From Trichocoleus desertorum NBK24 (GTDB taxonomy: Bacteria; Cyanobacteriota; Cyanobacteriia; FACHB-46), in NCBI RefSeq assembly GCF_030409055.1, contig NZ_CP116619.1, positions 2,246,628 through 2,310,627 on the forward strand: a stretch of 64,000 nucleotides of DNA. The letters are read 5' to 3'. The position numbers and the translations under genes are program-made. The first letter of the stretch is position 1. Each line of letters begins with the position of its first letter. Of the stretch, positions 8,661 to 33,005 are shown in pieces. Under the pieces are notes generated by a model that was not told the origin of the DNA, searched no databases, and saw nothing but the letters and a program-made list of their open reading frames with translations.

Positions 8661-11600
8661 TTAAGCAGGAAAAATAGATTTCAGGGTGTTGTACGCTGCT
8701 TTTTCCGGAAAATGCTGACAAATATCAACAATCGCCTGTCGCTGTAACCGAGACCGCAGTGGTTCTTCTATAATCAAGCGCTTCAATGCAGTCACGCAAG
8801 CTTCCGGTGAATTAGTGTCTACCATCAGGCTATTTTCTTCGTGTCTGGCGAAGCTTTGAGCGCCGCCGTTTTCAGGGACTATCGCCGCAACTCCACAGGC
8901 CATGGCTTCCATAGCAGTCAAACCCATAGCCTGGAAAGTCGAGAAATCAACAAAAATATCTACTTCATTGAGGAGGAATGCCAGTTGAGGTCGAGTTAAA
9001 ATTCCTGCATTTCGCCAAGGGAAATCATGGGGTAGTGCTAGAAAATTAGGATCGTCTGCCTCGCATCCAAACAAGATGATTTCAATGTCTTCTCGATAAG
9101 CCTGATGGATGTCCCTTAAGACTTCTAGAGTCAGTTTTGGATTGCGGCGGGGAGTACTAGGACGAATCATGGCAGCGATACGTAGCGGTCTGTAGGGCCA
9201 GTCAGAATCTCGCCGCCGACGCGGACGGTATAAATCTATGTTCACGCTAGGCCCCACGATAGAACAATCGACCCCAATCTTCTGTTTGACTAGGCTACGA
9301 TTCCACTCAGTCTTAGTGATGCGTACTAGGTCAGGATAGCGAGTATATGAATTACAAGCAGTTCTAAACGATTCCGAATTATTTGGGAAGAAATATGGCT
9401 CAAAATCTTGGATATAGTATCCCCTAATTGGGAGGCTCTGATCTGGCGTTAGAGGTTCCAACCAATCCACAGATTTATATAAAGTAGCAATGACTGCATC
9501 GTACTGGGGCAATAATCCAGAAATGTGATGCTCTTTTTCTACGTAGATGACTGGTATATTATTTTGTGGATAGCTGCGCTCGAATGTGTTTTGATGGCCA
9601 CTAAGGTTTACAATTCTTACATCTACGCCCATCTTCTGCATGGCTGTGGCTTCCTGAAGAACCACATTGCCACCACCACCAGGTTCTATAATCGGCAGAA
9701 TGAATAAAACACGTTTACCTTCCCACCGAGATTTGCCGTCCTCAATTAAGCTTTGGCGCATTGCAACGACTTGACTTTGGGCGCGAATGCCTTGGATCGC
9801 CCGGTCGAAGCGGCACACATTGACGTTATCGCTGATGATCTGTTGACCGTGCTTGACGACTAAGGCTTTATCTGATCGAGCGCATAAGAGTTTCCTACGT
9901 TCGTGGGAGTAGCTGCGAGACTGGCTGTGATAAATGTAGGCATCATCAGCGATCGCTAGTTGCCAACCCGCTTTAAAAGCACGTAAGCAATAATCGTTTT
10001 CCTCACCATACCCTTCTCCAAAAGTCGCCTCATCAAAGTAACCCAGTTCTTTTATCACCCTTTGCTTGATCGCTAGGCAAAAACCATTGAGAAAGGGGAT
10101 GCGAGGGTAGAGACGCTCAGAGTAATGTGCCACCAACTTAGCCCAATTGGCTATTGTCATCCCTTCAGGCAACTGATTGTCTGCCCAATCTCCTTGATGA
10201 ACAATTTCTGGAATCGACTGCCATGAAGCCGTATTGGAAAGCGGTCCTATCAACCCAATTTGCGGATCAGATTCTCCGCAAGCAACAATCCGATCCAGCC
10301 AGTTTGGTGTGACAACGGTATCGCTATTAAGCAGGATTGCATAGTCCCCCTGAGAAAGACGAAGCCCTTGATTTGCTGCAGAGGTGTACCCTTTTGCAAC
10401 TTCATTCCTAATGCGGGTTGCCCCCTGTGCATTTGCGAAGTCTTTGAGATATTTGCATGTCTCTTCGCCACTACCATCGTCGACCAAGACTAAGGAGTAT
10501 GGCATTCGTGAGTAGCGAATTACTGATTCCAAGCAACGTTTAACATCGTCTAGTGCGTTATGGACACAAACAATAATGTCTACAGTGACGGAATACCTCA
10601 CTAATGGTTGACGGGAAGAGACTTCTGTAATAAAACTATCAGCGTCAGTTTGCTTGCTTCTGAACTCATGGTGTGGATGAGTACTAGCTTTACTTCTACG
10701 CAAAGATAAAGGTTTAGGAATAGACTCTTTCAGTTGGAACCACAATGTCCGTAACTTCCAGAATTTACTGGTTTCCATTGCGGCAGTAACAGTGTTCGAT
10801 CGCTCTAGTTCTGCCTGAGTTTGGTGAAGCTGCAACTGCGACTGCTCTAGCTCTGCCTGAGTTTGGTGGAGCTGCAACTGCGACTGCTCTAGCTCTGCCT
10901 GAGTTTGGTGGAGCTGCAACTGCGACTGCTCTAGCTCTGCCTGAGTTTGGTGGAGCTGCAACTGCGACTGCTCTAGTTCTGCCTGAGTTTGGTGAAGCTG
11001 CGACTGCGACTGCTCTAGTTCTGCCTGAGTTTGGTGGAGCTGCAACTGCGACTGCTCTAGTTCTGCCTGAGTTTGGTGGAGCTGCAACTGCGACTGCTCT
11101 AGTTCTGCCTGAGTTTGGTGGAGCTGCGACTGCGACTGCTCTAGTTCTGCCTGAGTTTGGTGGAGCTGCGACTGCGACTGCTCTAGTTCTGCCTGAGTTT
11201 GGTGAAGCTGCGACTGCGACTGCTCTAGCTCTACTTGAATTAAATTAATTTCGGGCGTATACAACTCACTAATACTGCGATATGCGAGGTATTGATCTGG
11301 GGTAAGGCTACCCTGCTTCAAAGCTTGATAACAGCTATCAATAACTAAGTTTTCAGTCCTCCCTTGCTCAGAATAGTGATTATAAATCTTTTTAATTACA
11401 GCAGCACTCTTACTAGTTAGCTCCATAGAAAAATCAAACTTTAAAGCTAACTTCTTAGCTTCTGCCAATGAGTCAGAAATAACATCTTCATAGTTAACAA
11501 AATATACAGATTCATCTCTCGTAAAGTACCTGGCCGCCAAGTTATGCTGAAGCCAGAAATTAAAATTGTAGGCTTCAGATTTTCTATTTAAATCTTGGTT

Positions 11601-12050
11601 CGACTGGACACTTTCTAAAGGATGACGGTACACCAAAATTACTTCTATCGAATACCCTAAGCTTTTAAGGACTTTTCTCCAAGCCGGAAAGGTGATGCAA
11701 AAACGAGGGTCCTTCAATCCTATCTTCTCCTCGTTTTTCCACTCTTTTTCTACATTTTCAGATATATTTTTCTCTAAATTAGATAGCTCTTTCTTTTCTA
11801 GATCGGCTTCCAGAGGAAGCAAATAATCCTTTCCCCAATAACCCCCTACTCTTGATATGATATTATTATTTATTCTATTAACCCATTCCAACTCAAAAAA
11901 AATAGGATTATGCTTATAAATAGAAGGATTTAAAAAATTATTGAAGTCACCGAAGTTCACTCCGAACTCATGGAGCATATGACTAACTGCTGAAGTTCCG
12001 CTCCTAGGAGCGCCCAATACCAAAAAAGCTTTTTTATATACAGAAATCAT
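8661..12050 (-). CDS. Trifunctional sulfotransferase - GT2 - GT4 fusion with coiled coil
   Basis: A 1129-residue protein with four parts. Residues ~5-265 are a sulfotransferase domain: the PAPS 5'-phosphosulfate loop is VLGAPRSGTSAVSHML and the second binding strand is VILVYRHPLESVQSNQDL. Residues ~274-413 are ten 14-residue coiled-coil units, followed at ~424 by METSKFWKLRTLWFQLKE. Residues ~483-735 are a GT2 domain (VDIIVCVHNALDDVKRCLES, LVDDGSGEETC, AILLNSDTVVTPNWL with DxD-like NSD, and FGEGYGEENDYCLRA). Residues ~777-1125 are a GT4 domain (VLFILPIIEPGGGGNVVLQE, LRIAAMIRPSTPRRNPKLTL, and FQAMGLTAMEAMACGVAAIV as the E-x7-E region). Nearby CysC would supply PAPS. The protein probably elongates and sulfates the same glycan. 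The order of action is inferred. Confidence 0.88.
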   Translation of the reverse strand: MISVYKKAFLVLGAPRSGTSAVSHMLHEFGVNFGDFNNFLNPSIYKHNPIFFELEWVNRINNNIISRVGGYWGKDYLLPLEADLEKKELSNLEKNISENVEKEWKNEEKIGLKDPRFCITFPAWRKVLKSLGYSIEVILVYRHPLESVQSNQDLNRKSEAYNFNFWLQHNLAARYFTRDESVYFVNYEDVISDSLAEAKKLALKFDFSMELTSKSAAVIKKIYNHYSEQGRTENLVIDSCYQALKQGSLTPDQYLAYRSISELYTPEINLIQVELEQSQSQLHQTQAELEQSQSQLHQTQAELEQSQSQLHQTQAELEQSQLQLHQTQAELEQSQLQLHQTQAELEQSQSQLHQTQAELEQSQLQLHQTQAELEQSQLQLHQTQAELEQSQLQLHQTQAELEQSQLQLHQTQAELERSNTVTAAMETSKFWKLRTLWFQLKESIPKPLSLRRSKASTHPHHEFRSKQTDADSFITEVSSRQPLVRYSVTVDIIVCVHNALDDVKRCLESVIRYSRMPYSLVLVDDGSGEETCKYLKDFANAQGATRIRNEVAKGYTSAANQGLRLSQGDYAILLNSDTVVTPNWLDRIVACGESDPQIGLIGPLSNTASWQSIPEIVHQGDWADNQLPEGMTIANWAKLVAHYSERLYPRIPFLNGFCLAIKQRVIKELGYFDEATFGEGYGEENDYCLRAFKAGWQLAIADDAYIYHSQSRSYSHERRKLLCARSDKALVVKHGQQIISDNVNVCRFDRAIQGIRAQSQVVAMRQSLIEDGKSRWEGKRVLFILPIIEPGGGGNVVLQEATAMQKMGVDVRIVNLSGHQNTFERSYPQNNIPVIYVEKEHHISGLLPQYDAVIATLYKSVDWLEPLTPDQSLPIRGYYIQDFEPYFFPNNSESFRTACNSYTRYPDLVRITKTEWNRSLVKQKIGVDCSIVGPSVNIDLYRPRRRRDSDWPYRPLRIAAMIRPSTPRRNPKLTLEVLRDIHQAYREDIEIILFGCEADDPNFLALPHDFPWRNAGILTRPQLAFLLNEVDIFVDFSTFQAMGLTAMEAMACGVAAIVPENGGAQSFARHEENSLMVDTNSPEACVTALKRLIIEEPLRSRLQRQAIVDICQHFPEKAAYNTLKSIFPA
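10812..11231. repeat. Ten tandem 42-bp in-frame repeats
   Basis: Ten units of exactly 42 bp encode ELEQSQ(S/L)QLHQTQA. Units differ at few positions (Ser/Leu codon, some silent A/G and C/T changes), so copies were made recently and probably vary in number between strains. They form the coiled-coil linker between the sulfotransferase and glycosyltransferase domains. Confidence 0.95.
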
Positions 12051-12114
12051 TTTATATTTACTATCTTTATGTTGTTACTTGTCTTTGTTTTGTTTGTTAG
12101 GCTGACTGTAGTTT

Positions 12115-13551
12115 CTATATGTAAGTTAGGGGCTCCATTTGTTGTAGAAATAAGATACTTGGCCTTATACAGAGATCTACAAATCCACTAGCTTTTATAC
12201 CTGGCTCTGATTGAACTCTAAACATAGCTACATCGATACAGCGATGCAAAAAAACTTCTCCCTCATCAGCATCGACTATTCCGTTAACACCTGCATTTAG
12301 GAAGTAAACTCCAGGTAATAAAAAGGAACAAAATTTGAATTTTACCTGAATAATTTGCCCTGCCTCTACGTACTCAATTGCATTTTCTTGCAAATGAGAT
12401 GACGCACCAGCAAGTTCCAATCCACTTATGGTTTTGATAAACATTCCAAATCTTACCTGATAACAGTTTTCACTAAATTTCACTGAGTATACATAAGTGT
12501 ATTCTTTCCCTCTTACAAGATTGTTAACCCTTTTACCCTCCGAATTTTCAATACATAGATCTTCAATAATGGCACCTCTTGAAACATATAAAACAGTACT
12601 TTTAGGTATTAAATTCTCGTCAAAAAACTCACACTCTTCGAGACATAGTTCATCGACATTTAAGCCATCGTCATCCATCATTATTGGTCTCGACTTACCT
12701 AGCGTTTGTGCAGGTTTTTCTTGAGAGCTTAGACCACCTTTGTCATCCAAAATATTTATTTTCTTTTCTCTGTTTATAGTTTTTATTTCTTGTCTAAAAC
12801 GTTCACGTTTCTCCACTGGAGTATAAATTAGCTTTTGATACGTAGAAACTACCAACTTGGGAATCCCAGATAGCAATAATTCTCCTCGATCTATCAAGAT
12901 TGCAGAGTTACAAAGCTCTATTACAGAAGCAGCTGAGTGAGAAACGAATAAAATGGTTCCTCCTTTTTCATGAGTAGCTTGAATTCGAGAAAAGCATTTA
13001 CGTTGGAAGGCTTCATCCCCAACTGAAAGTGCCTCGTCTACCACTAAAATGTCGGGATCAACACTTGTAGCGACTGCAAAAGCCAACCGAACAAACATTC
13101 CACTAGAATAAGTTTTAACAGGTTGCTCAATAAAATCTCCAATATCTGCAAAACTAGCAATATCATCAAATTTTCTCTCAATTTCTTTTTGGCTTAACCC
13201 CAATAGCTGGCCATTAAAAAATACATTTTGTCGTCCCGTGAACTCCGGATTAAACCCACTCCCTAACTCTAGTAAAGCCGATATCCGACCATTAACTTGT
13301 ACCTCACCTATCGTTGGCTTCAACGTCCCTGCTATGAGTTGCAAAAGCGTGCTCTTCCCCGAACCGTTCCTCCCCACAATTCCTAACATCTGTCCCTTGG
13401 AAACTTCCAAGTTAATATCGCGCAGTGCCCAAAATTCATCTGCTCTGATCTTTCCAGGCAAGAGCGACTCTTTTAGACGATCTATAGGTCGCGCGTATCG
13501 CTTGAAGGCTTTCGAGACATTTTTTAATGAAATTACAATCTCACTCATCAC
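12115..13551 (-). CDS. wzt: Polysaccharide ABC exporter ATPase (Wzt-like) with carbohydrate-binding C-domain
   Basis: A 478-residue ATP-binding subunit of an ABC-2 polysaccharide exporter. The nucleotide-binding domain (~1-250) has Walker A GRNGSGKSTLLQLIAGTL, the signature YSSGMFVRLAFAVA, Walker B DILVVDEALSVGD and the switch His in LFVSHSAAS. Residues ~310-465 form a beta-rich extra domain, like the Wzt C-terminal domain that recognises the finished chain end in ABC-dependent O-antigen export. The matching permease is at 14574-15431. The APS kinase gene sits between the two exporter genes, with gaps of 204 and 263 bases. It probably carries the undecaprenyl-linked glycan across the inner membrane. 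Confidence 0.9.
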   Translation of the reverse strand: MMSEIVISLKNVSKAFKRYARPIDRLKESLLPGKIRADEFWALRDINLEVSKGQMLGIVGRNGSGKSTLLQLIAGTLKPTIGEVQVNGRISALLELGSGFNPEFTGRQNVFFNGQLLGLSQKEIERKFDDIASFADIGDFIEQPVKTYSSGMFVRLAFAVATSVDPDILVVDEALSVGDEAFQRKCFSRIQATHEKGGTILFVSHSAASVIELCNSAILIDRGELLLSGIPKLVVSTYQKLIYTPVEKRERFRQEIKTINREKKINILDDKGGLSSQEKPAQTLGKSRPIMMDDDGLNVDELCLEECEFFDENLIPKSTVLYVSRGAIIEDLCIENSEGKRVNNLVRGKEYTYVYSVKFSENCYQVRFGMFIKTISGLELAGASSHLQENAIEYVEAGQIIQVKFKFCSFLLPGVYFLNAGVNGIVDADEGEVFLHRCIDVAMFRVQSEPGIKASGFVDLCIRPSILFLQQMEPLTYI

Positions 13552-13755
13552 TACTGTTAAACTTTATCTAAAGAACATCAGAAAATGCTAAGCTCAAACG
13601 CTCATCAGCTTATAAATAAATTATCGAAATAAGAACTCAACCCAAAAACCAAAATCCACCACTGGAGCCTTGCAGGCAGTCAACTCATGGGCACAAAGAT
13701 GTATTCTAGGAATCACCAAAGCAGATTGGAGAGTGCCATCATGCATACCTACTGA

Positions 13756-14310
13756 TTAATACAACTTTGTAGATATTAGACTTCTAGAATGCAAGTATTG
13801 AAGTACCTGATCAACCGACTGTTCTATACTCAGTTCATGAGTCTTCAAAATCAAATCTGGCTGAGTCGGAGCTTCATAGGGAGCTGTAAGTCCAGTAAAG
13901 TCTTTGAGCTCCCCAGCCAATGCTTTTTTATACAGGCCTTTAGGATCCCTCTCTATGCAGACCTCAAGAGGACAGTCCACATATATCTCAATAAAATGAG
14001 GTAGAGAAGACTTAACGTTCTCACGAGCCTCCTTATAAGGAGAAATCAACGCTACACAGGTATTTACACCATGTTTGTTTAGAAGACCACAAATAAACCC
14101 AACTCGTTCAACATGAATATTTCTGGCTTCGGGAGAAAAGCCCAAATCTTTCGATAGATTTTCACGTAGAACATCTCCGTCTAGGCGCTCACAAGAAAGA
14201 AATAGCTGATGCAAAGCTTTGGTAATTTCTACCGCCAAAGTTGATTTACCTGAACCAGGTAGTCCAGTCAGCCAACATGTAAACCCTGGATAACTTGTAG
14301 ACCTACTCAT
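13756..14310 (-). CDS. cysC: Adenylyl-sulfate kinase
   Basis: A 184-residue APS kinase making PAPS (3'-phosphoadenylyl sulfate) from adenylyl sulfate and ATP. The P-loop is LTGLPGSGKSTLA. The APS-contact stretch LDGDVLRENLSKDLGFSPEA, the DxxRE-like RNIHVERVGFI, the FIEIYVDCPLEVCIERDPKGLYKKA lid region and FTGLTAPYEAP are all classical. Because it lies between the two halves of a polysaccharide exporter, and the operon carries a sulfotransferase, it probably feeds glycan sulfation rather than general sulfate assimilation. No sulfate-adenylyltransferase gene is nearby, so APS would come from the cell's general pool. Confidence 0.93.
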   Translation of the reverse strand: MSRSTSYPGFTCWLTGLPGSGKSTLAVEITKALHQLFLSCERLDGDVLRENLSKDLGFSPEARNIHVERVGFICGLLNKHGVNTCVALISPYKEARENVKSSLPHFIEIYVDCPLEVCIERDPKGLYKKALAGELKDFTGLTAPYEAPTQPDLILKTHELSIEQSVDQVLQYLHSRSLISTKLY

Positions 14311-14573
14311 AAGCAGTTTTCTTTAAGAAACTAGTTTGGAGCAATTCATCAGTCCATCTTTTCGCTTTGGTTTGCCAATCCTTATTGCCAATCAATTATT
14401 ATATGCACTTTATAATATTTTTGTTCAACAAATAAGTTGGAATATGTAAAACTACCACCAAACTCTAGCACTAACAAGGTTTGATTTTGGCCCTTCGCTC
14501 ATCTAACGTGACTGCTACAAGATAAATGAGGCAGGGCCAGTACTTTGAAATTTCTTTTAGATGAGGGATCTAA

Positions 14574-15431
14574 TTAGAGTACATCTGCGAATGCTGTACG
14601 TAGCCGTTGATAGCACCACAAACCACCTAGGAAGAATAACAAAGATATAAACGAAGCGATACTCCATTCAGCCCAGCGGTTAAATTGTCCAACCAAAACT
14701 AAATCCCGGTAGCTTTCAACGATCCCAGTCAATGGGTTTAGCCAAAAAATCCAAGCGCGCCATTGTTCTGGGATGGCGGAGGCAGGGTAAATAATTGGAG
14801 TAACGTAGAACCAAAGGTTTAAACCTACTGCCACAGTCTGGGGAATATCTCGCGAAAAGACTGTAAGTCCAGCAAATAAGTAACCCAGCCCTGCAGTTAA
14901 TAGCAATTGAGGTATCCAAACCAATGGCAGTAGCCATAATGTACTATGTATTGTTTGAGAAGTTATGGCAACCATTAAGATTAAAGCCATCAGGCCTAAG
15001 GTGCTCTCTAGAAAAACGGATATAACCGGAACTAAAGGTAGCAATTCGAGAGGAAAGACAACCTTTTTAACTAGATTAGGTTGAGTAATCACTGACGCTG
15101 CAGCTTGAGTAACTCCGGAGATAAAAGGAATCCAAGGAAGCAAACCTGCAAACAGCCAAAGACCAAAGGTTAAATTGTTATCTGGCAAGCCTTGAAGGCT
15201 CAGCTTTACCTTAAGAATGATCGAAAAAACATAAGTGTAAATGAGCAACTGGGAAATTTGATTTAGCAGGGGCCATAAATTCCCCAAAATAGAGCCTTTA
15301 TAGCGGGCCTCTAAGTCCCGCTGCACAAGCGCCTTAAGCAAATCAAGTTTAGTGTACCACTCCGGATTAATTGGTAGCCAACGAGTTAGACTGTTAACTC
15401 GTCGAACTACTCCTTTCATTGGTCTTAGCAA
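14574..15431 (-). CDS. wzm: Polysaccharide ABC exporter permease (Wzm-like)
   Basis: A 285-residue ABC-2-type membrane protein. An N-terminal cytoplasmic helix (YTKLDLLKALVQRDLEARYK) leads to six hydrophobic segments, with the family-typical GSILGNLWPLLNQISQLLIY, FGLWLFAGLLPWIPF, VKKVVFPLELLPLVPV and WFYVTPIIYP parts. It pairs with the Wzt-like ATPase encoded downstream. The start is either the ATG at 15431 or that at 15419 (MKGVVRR). It is the first gene of the minus-strand island, so the island promoter should lie in the 455-base region just upstream. Confidence 0.9.
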   Translation of the reverse strand: MLRPMKGVVRRVNSLTRWLPINPEWYTKLDLLKALVQRDLEARYKGSILGNLWPLLNQISQLLIYTYVFSIILKVKLSLQGLPDNNLTFGLWLFAGLLPWIPFISGVTQAAASVITQPNLVKKVVFPLELLPLVPVISVFLESTLGLMALILMVAITSQTIHSTLWLLPLVWIPQLLLTAGLGYLFAGLTVFSRDIPQTVAVGLNLWFYVTPIIYPASAIPEQWRAWIFWLNPLTGIVESYRDLVLVGQFNRWAEWSIASFISLLFFLGGLWCYQRLRTAFADVL

Positions 15432-15886
15432 CTTTCACGCCCTCATCCACTGCCTATACACCGAGTTCTGCTCAATACTGTCGGGTTGTTAATGCTCTAA
15501 CTACGAGGCGATCAAGATTAATTCGTAATTCACTTTTATTTATGAAGGCAGACAGAGCATCTGTGTTCCTGTTGCTTCATTTGAGAAAAGACCTAAACGT
15601 TTTGATCTAGAGCCTGGTAGTCTTTGTTCATAATCCCGACAACATACCTTAAGTTAAGATTTTATTCAAATTCCGCCTCAACTGCACAACAATTCTCAGT
15701 ATGAGAACCGTTCTCAATTTTTGTCTAATGGTGATGGCTGAAACACTCATTCTTTCGTTAGCTCTGTGCAGAACTCAGGCTTTTACAAACCCAAAAACAG
15801 TACAAAAGCACCAAAATGAGAATTGCTGTTAACTACATCTCAATGTTTTGAAGCAGCATTAAGTTCTCAGCACAGGAGGCGAGGGC
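15432..15886. other. Gene-free region upstream of the glycan island
   Basis: Apart from a non-convincing 63-codon frame there is no coding signal. The part between 15640 and 15830 is AT-rich and carries the palindromic TTCTCA/TGAGAA cluster described separately. It should contain the promoter for the minus-strand wzm gene. Confidence 0.6.
15693..15716. promoter_or_regulatory. Possible Fur/Zur-like operator cluster
   Basis: Three alternating half-sites with three-base spacers: TTCTCA (15693), TGAGAA (15702), TTCTCA (15711). The core TGAGAAC-C-GTTCTCA (15702-15716) is a perfect 7-1-7 palindrome of the form used by Fur-family repressors (TGAGAATnATTCTCA). A further half-site, TGAGAAT, lies at 15817. 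It is about 260 bases upstream of wzm. That a metal regulator binds here is inference. Confidence 0.4.
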
Positions 15887-16420
15887 CTAAGCTAGAGCTT
15901 GTTGTAGGGCTTGCTGAATAACTTGACGCTGCTCGGTATCGTAGCCCCAGCGCTCTAAAAAGCTTTGATAAGGGCCTTGGCCAGACGTGATGCTATCTAA
16001 CAAGCTTTGACCTTTCGCTTGCACGCCGGGTAATTGCAGCATTTGGATTAATTGATGAGTTCGCGATCGCACTCTATCTGACTCTTGGGCTGTAGCTTCA
16101 TCGTGCTGGCGGCGGTGGAATACCGCCATTGCCGAAGACATCGCTAAGTTTTTGACCAGCAACTCAGCCACAATTTCTGGAGCAGAGCGCAGAGCAGCCA
16201 CAACGGCTGTATCCGGACGATCAGCTAGTGTTCCAGAATCTGTGAGATAAGTGACAAAAAATCCACGCGCTCCTGCTTCACTGCTAACCAAAGCAGCGAT
16301 CGCCCGTTCTACTTCTGGCGTGGGCAGGGTAGCCTGTTCCATATGAGCGAGCAGCGATTGAGTCAGGGCGATCGCTTGCTCAAAGGTCATTTCTTCGGGG
16401 ACTGTAAAGACAGATGTCAT
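15887..16420 (-). CDS. Conserved-looking protein of unknown function
   Basis: A 177-residue soluble, mostly helical acidic protein beginning MTSVFTVPEEMTFEQAIALT. This ATG is preferred over one 12 codons upstream, which would reach to within two bases of the divergent ruvB start and adds an atypical [10 protein letters not shown] lead. Helices occupy most of the chain; the C-terminal part reads RTHQLIQMLQLPGVQAKGQS then YQSFLERWGYDTEQ. No catalytic motif, signal peptide or membrane segment is visible. I do not recognise the family. It is transcribed divergently from ruvB with a very short shared control region. Confidence 0.75.
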   Translation of the reverse strand: MTSVFTVPEEMTFEQAIALTQSLLAHMEQATLPTPEVERAIAALVSSEAGARGFFVTYLTDSGTLADRPDTAVVAALRSAPEIVAELLVKNLAMSSAMAVFHRRQHDEATAQESDRVRSRTHQLIQMLQLPGVQAKGQSLLDSITSGQGPYQSFLERWGYDTEQRQVIQQALQQALA

Positions 16421-27809: not shown

Positions 27810-29462
<1,653 letters not shown>

Positions 29463-29590: not shown

Positions 29591-30139
29591 CTAGTTACCC
29601 ATATAAGGCTCGCCGGACAAGAGGAAGACTAAGAACATACTCATCCAGGCTAGAGCCACCAAATAGATTAGAAGCGCTAAAGAATTTAGTAACAACTGCG
29701 ATACGCTCTGCCACACCTTCCGCTTTTGCCTCACTGCTGTGATGACCTTCAGCACTCCTGTAATGATTAGTGGAAGAGTCGCGATCGCTGCTAGAAGCAA
29801 GCCACAGAAAAGAGCGAGGGTTGAGAAGAAGGGTATTTTATAAAACGCAGCAGACGCCAACATCATTAAACTAGCTACAACCAGCAAACTGGCACAAGCA
29901 AGTTCTCCGATCAGGCACTTTTTATCTAGTTTTGCTTGCCTCTGGCCCCTAAGCGCGCTTCTACCAATTAGTACCCCATGCAATCCGGGTGATCCTATGA
30001 GTATGCCTACAAAGAAAATATTGTGTTGAGCTGCGATCGCCGCTAAAAGCAAACCGCAGAGAAAACCGAGGGCTGGGAGGAACGGTCTTAGCTTGGACAC
30101 AAAAGACCTCAGCATTATTAAATCAGCTAAAACCAGCAA
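29591..30139 (-). CDS. Membrane protein with internal duplication, unknown function
   Basis: A 182-residue hydrophobic protein with about five membrane segments. An internal duplication is visible: LGFLCGLLLAAIAAQHNIFF and LALFCGLLLAAIATLPLII share FCGLLLAAIA, each following a basic-aromatic lead (RPFLPA, KIPFFST) and followed by a GVL segment with basic residues. The C-terminal helix pair is LLLNSLALLIYLVALAWMSM. No conserved catalytic motif is seen. It lies divergent from the reverse transcriptase gene with a ~145-base shared gap; whether they work together is not known. The start may be the second Met (MLRSFVSK). Confidence 0.65.
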   Translation of the reverse strand: MLVLADLIMLRSFVSKLRPFLPALGFLCGLLLAAIAAQHNIFFVGILIGSPGLHGVLIGRSALRGQRQAKLDKKCLIGELACASLLVVASLMMLASAAFYKIPFFSTLALFCGLLLAAIATLPLIITGVLKVITAVRQKRKVWQSVSQLLLNSLALLIYLVALAWMSMFLVFLLSGEPYMGN

Positions 30140-30285
30140 GCGAGCACAGTTAAGTTCTACAGCAACTACACTAACCGGACCTCTAATTTCTCAAATGATT
30201 ATTACCAACTAGGATGGAGAGCGATCGCCTGCATCAAAGTTCGATCCTACATCTTCTCTGTAAGAATATAAAACAAGAAATTTGT

Positions 30286-31911
30286 ATGGCTAAGCAAACA
30301 ATCTCTGATCAACTCAAGGTAGAATCGCTAGACTGGGCAATTGCTCATATTAGAAAGTTTGGAGATACAGATATATTTCCTGTCCCATTCGAATATGAAG
30401 CGATCCAGATTAGCTGGAATGGAATTAGGAATGAGTTAACTCATATTAATATCAAAGAATATGAAGGAAGACCTTTTCAAAGGATTCTGATTCCAAAGCC
30501 TCAGGGCGGCTTTCGTGTAGCCATCCAGCTTGATCCAATAGATGCTTTGCTATATACCGCACTAGTCTATGAAGCTGCTCAACTGATAGAGCAGAGCAGG
30601 GCTCCGAAAGAAAGTAAAATTGCTTGTTCTTATCGAGTGGAAATTGACTCTAGTGGTCAGTTATTTCGAAAAGATAGCGGTTGGAATGATTTCCATGAAC
30701 GATCAGCTAGCTTGGCCGAATCAGGCCAGTATAGTTATGTAATCACCGCAGATATATCTGATTTTTATAATCAAATAAGCCACCATCGGGTAAGAAATGC
30801 ATTGGAACTGTCTGGAGTATTAAGCTCCCGTGCAGAGAATTTTGAAAATTTTTTAATGAATCTTACACGTGGTCAATCCAGGGGGATTCCAGTAGGCCCT
30901 TCAGCGTCTATTTTACTTGCCGAAGCTTGCTTAAATGATGTGGATAGCTTTCTCTTACGTAAGGGCTATACTCACGTTCGCTATGTAGACGATTTTAGAA
31001 TTTTCTGCCCTAATCTTACGAAAGCTTATAAAGCATTGCATGATCTTTCTGAGTATTTATACACTGCTCATAGATTAACATTACAAGCAGGGAAGACAGA
31101 GATAAAACCCCTAGAGAGGTTTGTGGCCCATGAACTGTTTGATCCGGAGAGATTAGAAGAACAGACAAAAGCCAACAAAATAGATAGTTTATTAAAAGCT
31201 TTTTCAGTAGAGCGCGAAGAAGTATTTCAAGTTTTTTTGCGCTATTCAAATCCTTTGGATCTCGAAAGTCTAAGCCTTCAAGATCAAGAAATCTCAAAAG
31301 AAGAAGTAAACAAAATTGCAAGGGAAAATATTTTAGAGCTTTTTACTAGCTGCTTAACTGAAAATATCCTTCACTTGGGTCTCGCACGCTATTTATTAAG
31401 ACGAGCTTTGCTTCTCAGAACTAATGTTTTACATGAAAGTGTTTTGAATAATTTAGATAAGCTTGCTCCTGTGATGCGAGATGCAATGATATACCTAAGT
31501 AAAACTACAACATCAAGCAATTCACCATATGTTGGTGAAAGATTGATAGAGTTTTATAGAAAATCAGAGATTTCTTTTCTTCCCTATATGGGCCTTTGGC
31601 TATCTTACATATTAGCAAATCACTTTGCTTCTGATTTTGAAAGGGATATTAATAATATCTGTGACTCCCTAAGAATTCAGCTTGGTACACGTCCATTTGC
31701 ACTATTAGCTAGAAAACTAAAGTACCTAGACTGGGTCAGGGAGCAGAAGGAGACCTGGCAGAACAATAATCCCTGGGATAAGCGTGCAATCATATGGTCC
31801 GCATCAGTCTTATCGGAGGATGAAAGAAGATATTGGCTTGCCCGAGTGCAGAACGCCGGAGACCTATTAGACAAGGCTATAGCAACAGCAGCACTTTCTA
31901 TAAAGATTTGA
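30286..31911 (+). CDS. Stand-alone reverse transcriptase, UG/Abi (defence-type) like
   Basis: A 541-residue RNA-directed DNA polymerase homologue. RT motifs appear in order: RILIPKPQGGFRVAIQLDP (fingers, ~65-85), motif A VITADISDFYNQISHHRV (~152-170; catalytic Asp), motif B RGIPVGPSASILLAEACLND (~198-218), motif C YVDD in THVRYVDDFRIFC (~233), and a thumb-side LQAGKTEIKP. The C-terminal ~270 residues are helical with no maturase, HNH or protease domain. The GxPVGPxAS form of motif B and a long helical C-terminus resemble Abi/UG reverse transcriptases used in antiphage defence. The ATG at 30286 (MAKQTISDQ) is preferred to 30214, whose lead spans a HIP1 site and looks non-coding. No HIP1 and high AT content suggest transfer. 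Confidence 0.85.
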   Translation: MAKQTISDQLKVESLDWAIAHIRKFGDTDIFPVPFEYEAIQISWNGIRNELTHINIKEYEGRPFQRILIPKPQGGFRVAIQLDPIDALLYTALVYEAAQLIEQSRAPKESKIACSYRVEIDSSGQLFRKDSGWNDFHERSASLAESGQYSYVITADISDFYNQISHHRVRNALELSGVLSSRAENFENFLMNLTRGQSRGIPVGPSASILLAEACLNDVDSFLLRKGYTHVRYVDDFRIFCPNLTKAYKALHDLSEYLYTAHRLTLQAGKTEIKPLERFVAHELFDPERLEEQTKANKIDSLLKAFSVEREEVFQVFLRYSNPLDLESLSLQDQEISKEEVNKIARENILELFTSCLTENILHLGLARYLLRRALLLRTNVLHESVLNNLDKLAPVMRDAMIYLSKTTTSSNSPYVGERLIEFYRKSEISFLPYMGLWLSYILANHFASDFERDINNICDSLRIQLGTRPFALLARKLKYLDWVREQKETWQNNNPWDKRAIIWSASVLSEDERRYWLARVQNAGDLLDKAIATAALSIKI

Positions 31912-32022
31912 GCTTGTATTCGTTTAAGAAGTAACTGAGAGACTGACTCACCATTCTCTCTAACAAACGTACTACAGCAACTTCTTCATAAGACCATCGC
32001 CCCACAGATGCAGGGCAATTAT

Positions 32023-32196
32023 TTATTTAGAACCAAATTGTTGTTTGGCTTGCTCGTAGACTTCGACTGTGATTTGGGTGATGTCTGCTTCTTGAGCAAA
32101 CTTTTCGATTTTTTTGCGGGCCGCAGGGCGAACGAAGAACGGAATCTCCTTGAGGCGGGCTTCCGCGTCTGCGGTCCACTGAATTGCATCACTCAT
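32023..32196 (-). CDS. PCP_red-domain mini-protein (protochlorophyllide reductase C-terminal-like)
   Basis: A 57-residue protein, MSDAIQWTADAEARLKEIPF followed by FVRPAARKKIEKFAQEADIT, then QITVEVYEQAKQQF. This is the small domain found at the C-terminus of ChlB (light-independent protochlorophyllide reductase; PCP_red family), with its W-(T/D)-x-EA-x-x-x-L-x-x-(I/V)-P-x-F-V-R start and PxxxRxxxEK(x)A-type helix. Here it stands alone, without ChlB or ChlL. Free-standing copies are known in oxygenic phototrophs, with unclear roles. Ordinary codon use and a clean start and stop support a real gene. It lies convergent to the reverse transcriptase. Confidence 0.82.
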   Translation of the reverse strand: MSDAIQWTADAEARLKEIPFFVRPAARKKIEKFAQEADITQITVEVYEQAKQQFGSK

Positions 32197-33005
32197 CGTC
32201 TGTAGCTCCCACGCACTAATTGATTTGGGCCTTGCGCCATTTTTAGAGCGTAGACTTACCTGCTCTAGATGGCAAGAAAAAATCTAGAGTTAAATTATTT
32301 TTATACCGTAAACTTACCGAACTCAGCAGGCAGAGTGGAAGAACCTCTGGCTATAGACTTAAGAATCCACCGTATAAAAAACTACCATTTATTGTGTTGA
32401 GTTCTTGAACTTATGTCCACTCAACTAAGTAATTCTAGGGATGACAGAGCTTCACCAAAAATTTAGATTTGTGTCGTTGGTGTAAAGTTGACTCCAAAAA
32501 GTGTGAAATCAGTCAGAATAGTGCTGAATTACCAGGGTGCTGAAGTCATATCCGTTATCTTGAAAGCCGTTGGGCTAGAACAGCGGCCTTCCTTCTTTCA
32601 GTTGTGTGTTCTCTGAATAATGATCACCCTTGATCCCGCGAATTCTGTTAGCAATAACGTCTACCCGTTCGCGCCGAACGATTGCTGATAATCCGAGTCC
32701 AGTCGTAAGGTTAAGCCGCTAATGATGATGTTCGATTGTTGATGGAATTTTTGGTTTAAGTTTTCCCACTCAAATTTAGGCGATCGCCCTAACTCAAGTT
32801 TGCTTTAACAGCTACATTAGTCTCCTGTTTTACATTTATGGAGGCTCTGTTCCTGCTGACTTTAGCTTCGGAATTGTTCCTCATCCAGCTCATTCATCCC
32901 TGTAAGCTTGGCTCAGATAATATTTTGGGCTGACAATATTCATTCACACTGTTTTGGAACTCAGCTTTGCCTAACTCCACGCGACATCGTAGAGGAGGCA
33001 ATTCG
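32197..33005. other. 809-base gene-free region upstream of the glycanase gene
   Basis: No convincing coding frame or RNA gene is seen. The part 32300-32400 is AT-rich, with TTTTTATACCGT and ACCGTATAAAAA as near-complementary pieces about 70 bases apart. Promoters for the PCP_red gene (minus) and the glycanase gene (plus) should lie here. A strong GAGGAGG ribosome site ends at 32998. Confidence 0.5.

Follow-up and report, generated by a model that had tools for sequence, protein, structure and literature searches.

A stand-alone DRT8 reverse transcriptase gene with a Class 1-type architecture in the cyanobacterium Trichocoleus desertorum NBK24

Among the UG/Abi reverse transcriptases (RTs), Class 1 systems have in common an alphaRep domain and a DNA synthesis that needs no nucleic-acid template (PMC13174585). 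In AbiK and Abi-P2 a tyrosine primes the synthesis and the helical domain stands in for the template (PMC9508834), and in several enzymes of the Class 1 layout it is the enzyme's own tyrosine that acts as the primer (PMC9508834, PMC13174585). Other priming sites described in UG RTs are Y666 of DRT3b (PMC13174585) and S402 of DRT1 (PMC13275509). DRT4 and DRT6 are single-gene systems (PMC13213688), whereas several UG RTs require a cis ncRNA (PMC13174585, PMC12632851). DRT8 is a numbered DRT type for which antiphage activity has been reported at the family level, with no published mechanism (PMC13213688).

The gene described here, located in a window of 64,000 nucleotides, is a stand-alone DRT8 reverse transcriptase and thus a further representative, from a cyanobacterium, of a type already catalogued rather than a new system. 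UG7 of the UG numbering is presumably the same type as DRT8, and we take two of its members, NP_442332.1 and AFY59940.1, to be cyanobacterial. Both RTs were assigned to UG7 in a 2021 survey (PMC8934634). The present analysis adds comparative evidence that a single gene of Class 1 architecture makes up the DRT8 system, together with a specific residue to test. The features of the locus are listed in Table 1.

Table 1. Features of the RT locus and the evidence for each (positions are those of the window; G386 and G387 are the two comparison genomes)
Feature	Position	Strand	Evidence
groEL, conserved left anchor	27822..29462	+	Pfam Cpn60_TCP1; syntenic DNA 92-93% identical in G386/G387
Strain-specific insert, approximate: RT gene and little flank	30260..31995		Homology limits against G386/G387
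DRT8-type RT gene, intact, 541 aa	30286..31911	+	PADLOC Drt8, Pfam RVT_1, tree
RT fingers/palm domain, aa 1-284	30286..31137	+	Motif invariance (54 homologues), predicted structure
Alpha-solenoid (HEAT/alphaRep-like) C-terminal domain, aa 285-541	31138..31908	+	AF2, Foldseek, VIA
PCP_red-domain small protein, conserved right anchor	32023..32196	-	PF08369, E 7.6e-22; syntenic in G386/G387

Type assignment and architecture of the RT

The protein matched the PADLOC Drt8 profile with 490.3 bits (E 2.4e-147), residues 10-536 aligning with positions 2-489 of the 493 in the profile, and the runner-up was the UG21 profile (RT_UG21) with 181.5 bits. Searching 84,980 species genomes gave 80 relatives, distributed over at least eight phyla, and seven of these, spread over the tree, all scored best with the Drt8 profile. 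The tree of 80 proteins places the RT in a clade of 12 rows (support 99/89), nested in one of 31 rows (100/100), where its companions are proteins of Nostoc, Chromobacterium, Methylobacter, Variovorax and Acidobacteriaceae. The full-length profile, the layout of an RT followed by a helical region, the tree clade and the stand-alone gene are all shared with the DRT8 type; within the type, the RT is distinguished by its sub-clade with Proteobacteria, Acidobacteria and Nostoc and by nearest full-length relatives that are just 54-58% identical. Two Nostoc homologues (L045:5992-7419 and L046:5992-7047) are closest to it over the RT domain, at 71%; both lie near contig ends and are either interrupted or lengthened by a long insertion in the RT-solenoid linker.

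In the tree of RT domains, a DRT8 clade of 15 rows (93/95) joins DRT5, DRT6/4 and AbiP2 (95/91) and lies apart from the six other RTs that the genome encodes, a set of group II intron and RT-Cas1-like enzymes. The first-pass annotation had described a stand-alone UG/Abi-like RT, as the profile search and the phylogeny now support, but its suggestion of a possible new defence system is contradicted by the full-length Drt8 match and the grouping with 80 DRT8 loci, and the numbered DRT type that it could not assign is given by that same match. A maturase domain, intron RNA and placement among intron RTs were looked for as marks of a group II intron RT and none was found. Diversity-generating retroelements (DGRs) and retrons were checked by profile, RNA-family and repeat searches: motif B is GIPVGPSAS rather than the SQ form, only short repeats occur within 29900-32300, and the upstream DNA gave no RNA family match for a retron msr-msd, the 146 nt upstream showing no unusual folding (z 1.1). 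The earlier reading, in which no maturase, Cas1, retron-style signal or template repeat was seen, is upheld, for repeats over 29900-32300.

The open reading frame matches Pfam RVT_1 (E 1e-15) and its start, the ATG at 30286, is backed by the N-termini of the relatives; an in-frame ATG lies further upstream, at 30214, but the homology stops short of it. Motif A (DISDF, containing D156 and D159), motif B (residues 200-208) and motif C (YVDD, residues 233-236) were all recovered as first noted, and D156/D159, G200/P202/G204, R232 and D235-D236 are invariant in 54 homologues. The catalytic triad of D156, D235 and D236 is intact. Across five DRT8 gene pairs dN/dS is 0.07-0.15, and the family is thus under purifying selection.

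In the predicted structure (pLDDT 92 for the whole protein and 90 for the C-terminal domain modelled alone with AF2), the C-terminal ~257 residues form an all-helical solenoid, in agreement with the helical C-terminus proposed earlier. The protein has the Class 1 UG/Abi layout, in which the RT is fused to an alphaRep/HEAT-like solenoid in place of the thumb. Conservation within the C-terminal domain is highest at P395 and Y403, the latter being present in 51 of 52 sequences (98%) and invariant in the alignment of the C-terminal domain. No other hydroxyl residue outside the RT core is as conserved as Y403.

Foldseek ranked DRT4, UG15 (the same type as DRT4), DRT6, Abi-P2, AbiK and AbiA at the top. 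With VIA-align, DRT6, AbiK, DRT4 and Abi-P2 were all aligned from residue ~12 to 535, with 410-454 residues aligned and Z of 16-21; the matches include 9wy8 of DRT6 (Z 20.7, 439 aligned), 7r07 of AbiK (Z 19.8, 445 aligned), 9vdo of DRT4 (Z 18.8, 432 aligned) and Abi-P2 (Z 18.1, 410 aligned). DRT6 and DRT4 are the best end-to-end structural matches and, like the RT, are single genes with an alpha-solenoid C-terminus, but they share only 13-17% sequence identity with it and have their own clade and profile. AbiK and Abi-P2, the Class 1 Abi polymerases, likewise combine an RT-like domain with a helical solenoid, although their priming tyrosines (Y44 and Y61 respectively) have no conserved counterpart here. 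The candidate for an AbiK-like tyrosine in the fingers loop between helices 2 and 3, Y59, was rejected, being tyrosine in 34% of the sequences and otherwise W, F or V; any priming by the RT would therefore use another residue. The ncRNA-templated DRT9 and DRT2 share the palm and fingers, but their alignment is limited to 250-280 residues and ends after the RT domain. The C-terminal domain alone matches alphaRep, armadillo and HEAT solenoids with Z of 10-12 and Foldseek E no better than ~0.05, a result that for this predicted model indicates a common fold class and not kinship.

Insertion site and distribution

The insertion site was compared with the two available genomes of the same genus, G386 and G387. 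The RT gene lies among ordinary genes, with groEL and a membrane protein to its left and the PCP_red protein to its right, and no defence island surrounds it. Both sides are retained in G386 and G387 while the DNA between them is unrelated to that of the window, and a search of both assemblies revealed no DRT8 elsewhere. In G387 the interval between groEL and the PCP_red gene holds an ORF of 166 aa, in G386 one of 136 aa; these small genes (L136:2941-3441 and L137:420-830) differ and are unrelated to each other, so the interval is a variable spot beside a housekeeping operon.

Homology to the two genomes restarts at ~31996 on the right. On the left, strong identity stops at 30122-30149 and a weaker similarity to G386, equalled by one of 500 shuffles, extends to ~30259. 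These limits leave as insert-specific flank only ~26 bp on the upstream side of the RT gene and ~84 bp on its downstream side, so the acquired piece is close to the RT gene alone. An imperfect direct repeat of 14 nt (30154-30167 and 31969-31982, 13/14 matching) exceeds those of ~3000 random segment pairs and was considered as the ends of the insert; it was set aside because its left copy lies in DNA still resembling G386 and neither relative has the repeat.

Judged from this comparison, the RT gene is a recent horizontal acquisition that arrived as a single gene between groEL and the PCP_red gene. Acquisition had been proposed in the first-pass annotation, and that part stands on the two genomes of the same genus, which lack the gene and have other DNA at the spot; the support it drew from HIP1 and AT-richness is weaker than stated. 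The GC content of the RT ORF is 38.7% against 47.1% in the window (~5th percentile). The ORF lacks HIP1, but so do 11.5% of the 1626-bp windows here, too many for its absence to serve as evidence of acquisition, and one HIP1 occurs just upstream, at 30221.

Six of 386 cyanobacterial genomes carry DRT8, and these fall across three separate DRT8 clades. Six viral contigs carry a relative of the RT when scanned with the alignment as the query; the scan with the RT protein alone gave no match. The scatter over the clades and the viral-contig copies point to repeated horizontal transfer, by which DRT8 has reached cyanobacteria repeatedly and independently.

Mode of DNA synthesis, partner genes and flanking DNA

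Enzymes of the same layout make template-free DNA (PMC9508834, PMC13174585), and DRT8 therefore probably works in the Class 1 way. This mode is favoured by three observations: 80 loci reveal no partner, the flanks are not conserved and the fold matches DRT6, AbiK and DRT4 from end to end. Taken together, the evidence points to DNA made template-free by DRT8. The gene is probably a stand-alone, horizontally acquired DRT8 working by oligomeric, protein-primed, template-independent and phage-triggered DNA synthesis. The RT would form trimers or hexamers through its alpha-solenoid, a domain that would also do the work of both thumb and template strand. Starting on one of its own hydroxyl side chains and needing no RNA template, the RT would polymerise dNTPs into single-stranded DNA joined to the RT protein. 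Phage infection might trigger or unmask this synthesis, and the DNA product might then halt phage replication or kill the cell (abortive infection). Antiphage defence by this copy is suggested by its membership of the DRT8 family.

No partner gene recurs at the 80 DRT8 loci except among close relatives whose entire neighbourhoods are shared. This, together with the lone position of the RT gene between housekeeping genes, makes it unlikely that DRT8 only makes the DNA within a system that takes its effector or regulator from another part of the genome or from the phage, such that the gene alone would not be defensive. Such a two-part system would nonetheless agree with a review in which Cap17 (PNP) effectors are reported to accompany some DRT8 (PMC10952713), from which some DRT8 may be multi-gene. 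It would also agree with a distant genome of the cyanobacterial phylum (L012:722-3078), in which the stop of the DRT8 RT is overlapped by 19 nt by a downstream gene of 253 aa; this gene has no Pfam match, and the pair is a possible two-gene DRT8 variant. DRT8 relatives often adjoin other defence genes as well, but the 31 neighbours scanned were picked partly by eye and no enrichment is claimed. In Chromobacterium (L038:4496-5998) and Stutzerimonas (L101:4508-5998), which belong to different sub-clades, nrdB lies directly upstream of the DRT8 gene on the same strand; this adjacency either marks an insertion spot common to both or reflects a connection with the supply of dNTPs.

Unlikely too is a Class 2 style of synthesis (as in DRT2/3a/9/10), templated by an ncRNA that would be concealed in the short flanks, on the strand opposite the ORF or at another place in the genome, in keeping with the cis ncRNA needed by several UG RTs. 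Among DRT8 pairs with 70-85% identity in RT DNA, the flanks are dissimilar on both sides apart from short stretches and shared neighbourhoods, in a comparison run without a positive control (a known ncRNA-bearing DRT) and hence of unmeasured sensitivity. The upstream identity between L038 and L101 was considered as an ncRNA and rejected, as it is the end of nrdB (a gene named from its sequence, not from a profile). The flanks of the RT gene gave no Rfam match and fold no better than shuffles, with the exception of the 84-nt downstream piece, which folds somewhat better (a weak z of -1.56). As the flanks are unconserved at this RT identity and so little flanking DNA came along with the gene, a co-inherited ncRNA is unlikely, and the C-terminus is a solenoid of the Class 1 type. 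Such an RNA, if it exists, may be small, fast-evolving, provided in trans or contained within the ORF itself.

It is very improbable that the gene encodes a retroelement enzyme, or that it is a captured RT serving the cell in some role other than defence. The missing defence island would suit this reading, and the fold of the RT domain aligns well (Z 23-24, 260-304 residues, mainly the RT part) with the RTs of group II introns and DGRs, as that of any RT would, but profile, tree and full-length architecture all give DRT8, no maturase domain or intron RNA was found, nor any template repeat within 29900-32300, and the distribution among cyanobacteria is patchy.

For protein-primed, template-independent synthesis, Y403 may provide the primer, form part of the wall of the DNA channel or do no more than stabilise the protein. 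It would be bold, and we give it a low probability, to regard DRT8 as single-gene, RNA-independent polymerases that prime on a solenoid tyrosine, Y403 here, at a site unlike those of AbiK, Abi-P2, DRT1 and DRT3b, with a DNA product whose sequence is possibly dictated by the protein. The conserved C-terminal tyrosine offers a test of priming by one mutation, and, with almost no co-inherited flank and no partner in 80 relatives, the gene by itself is a reasonable minimal construct.

Further reverse transcriptases of cyanobacteria and other features of the window

Other UG/Abi RT types were found in cyanobacterial genomes (L014, L018, L019, L020, L022 and L027), namely UG34, DRT5, UG13a, AbiP2 and DRT6/4. 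The genome of the window carries three identical copies of a 458-aa RT (L002, L003 and L004), which look like a recently active mobile intron. Within the window, a stretch of 6.1 kb at 9949-16063 has no HIP1 and a GC content down to 35%, and holds a polysaccharide-export-like cluster consisting of an ABC transporter pair, a kinase and a glycosyltransferase. The ORF at 8661-12050 (1129 aa) contains a long tandem QSQLHQTQAELE repeat.
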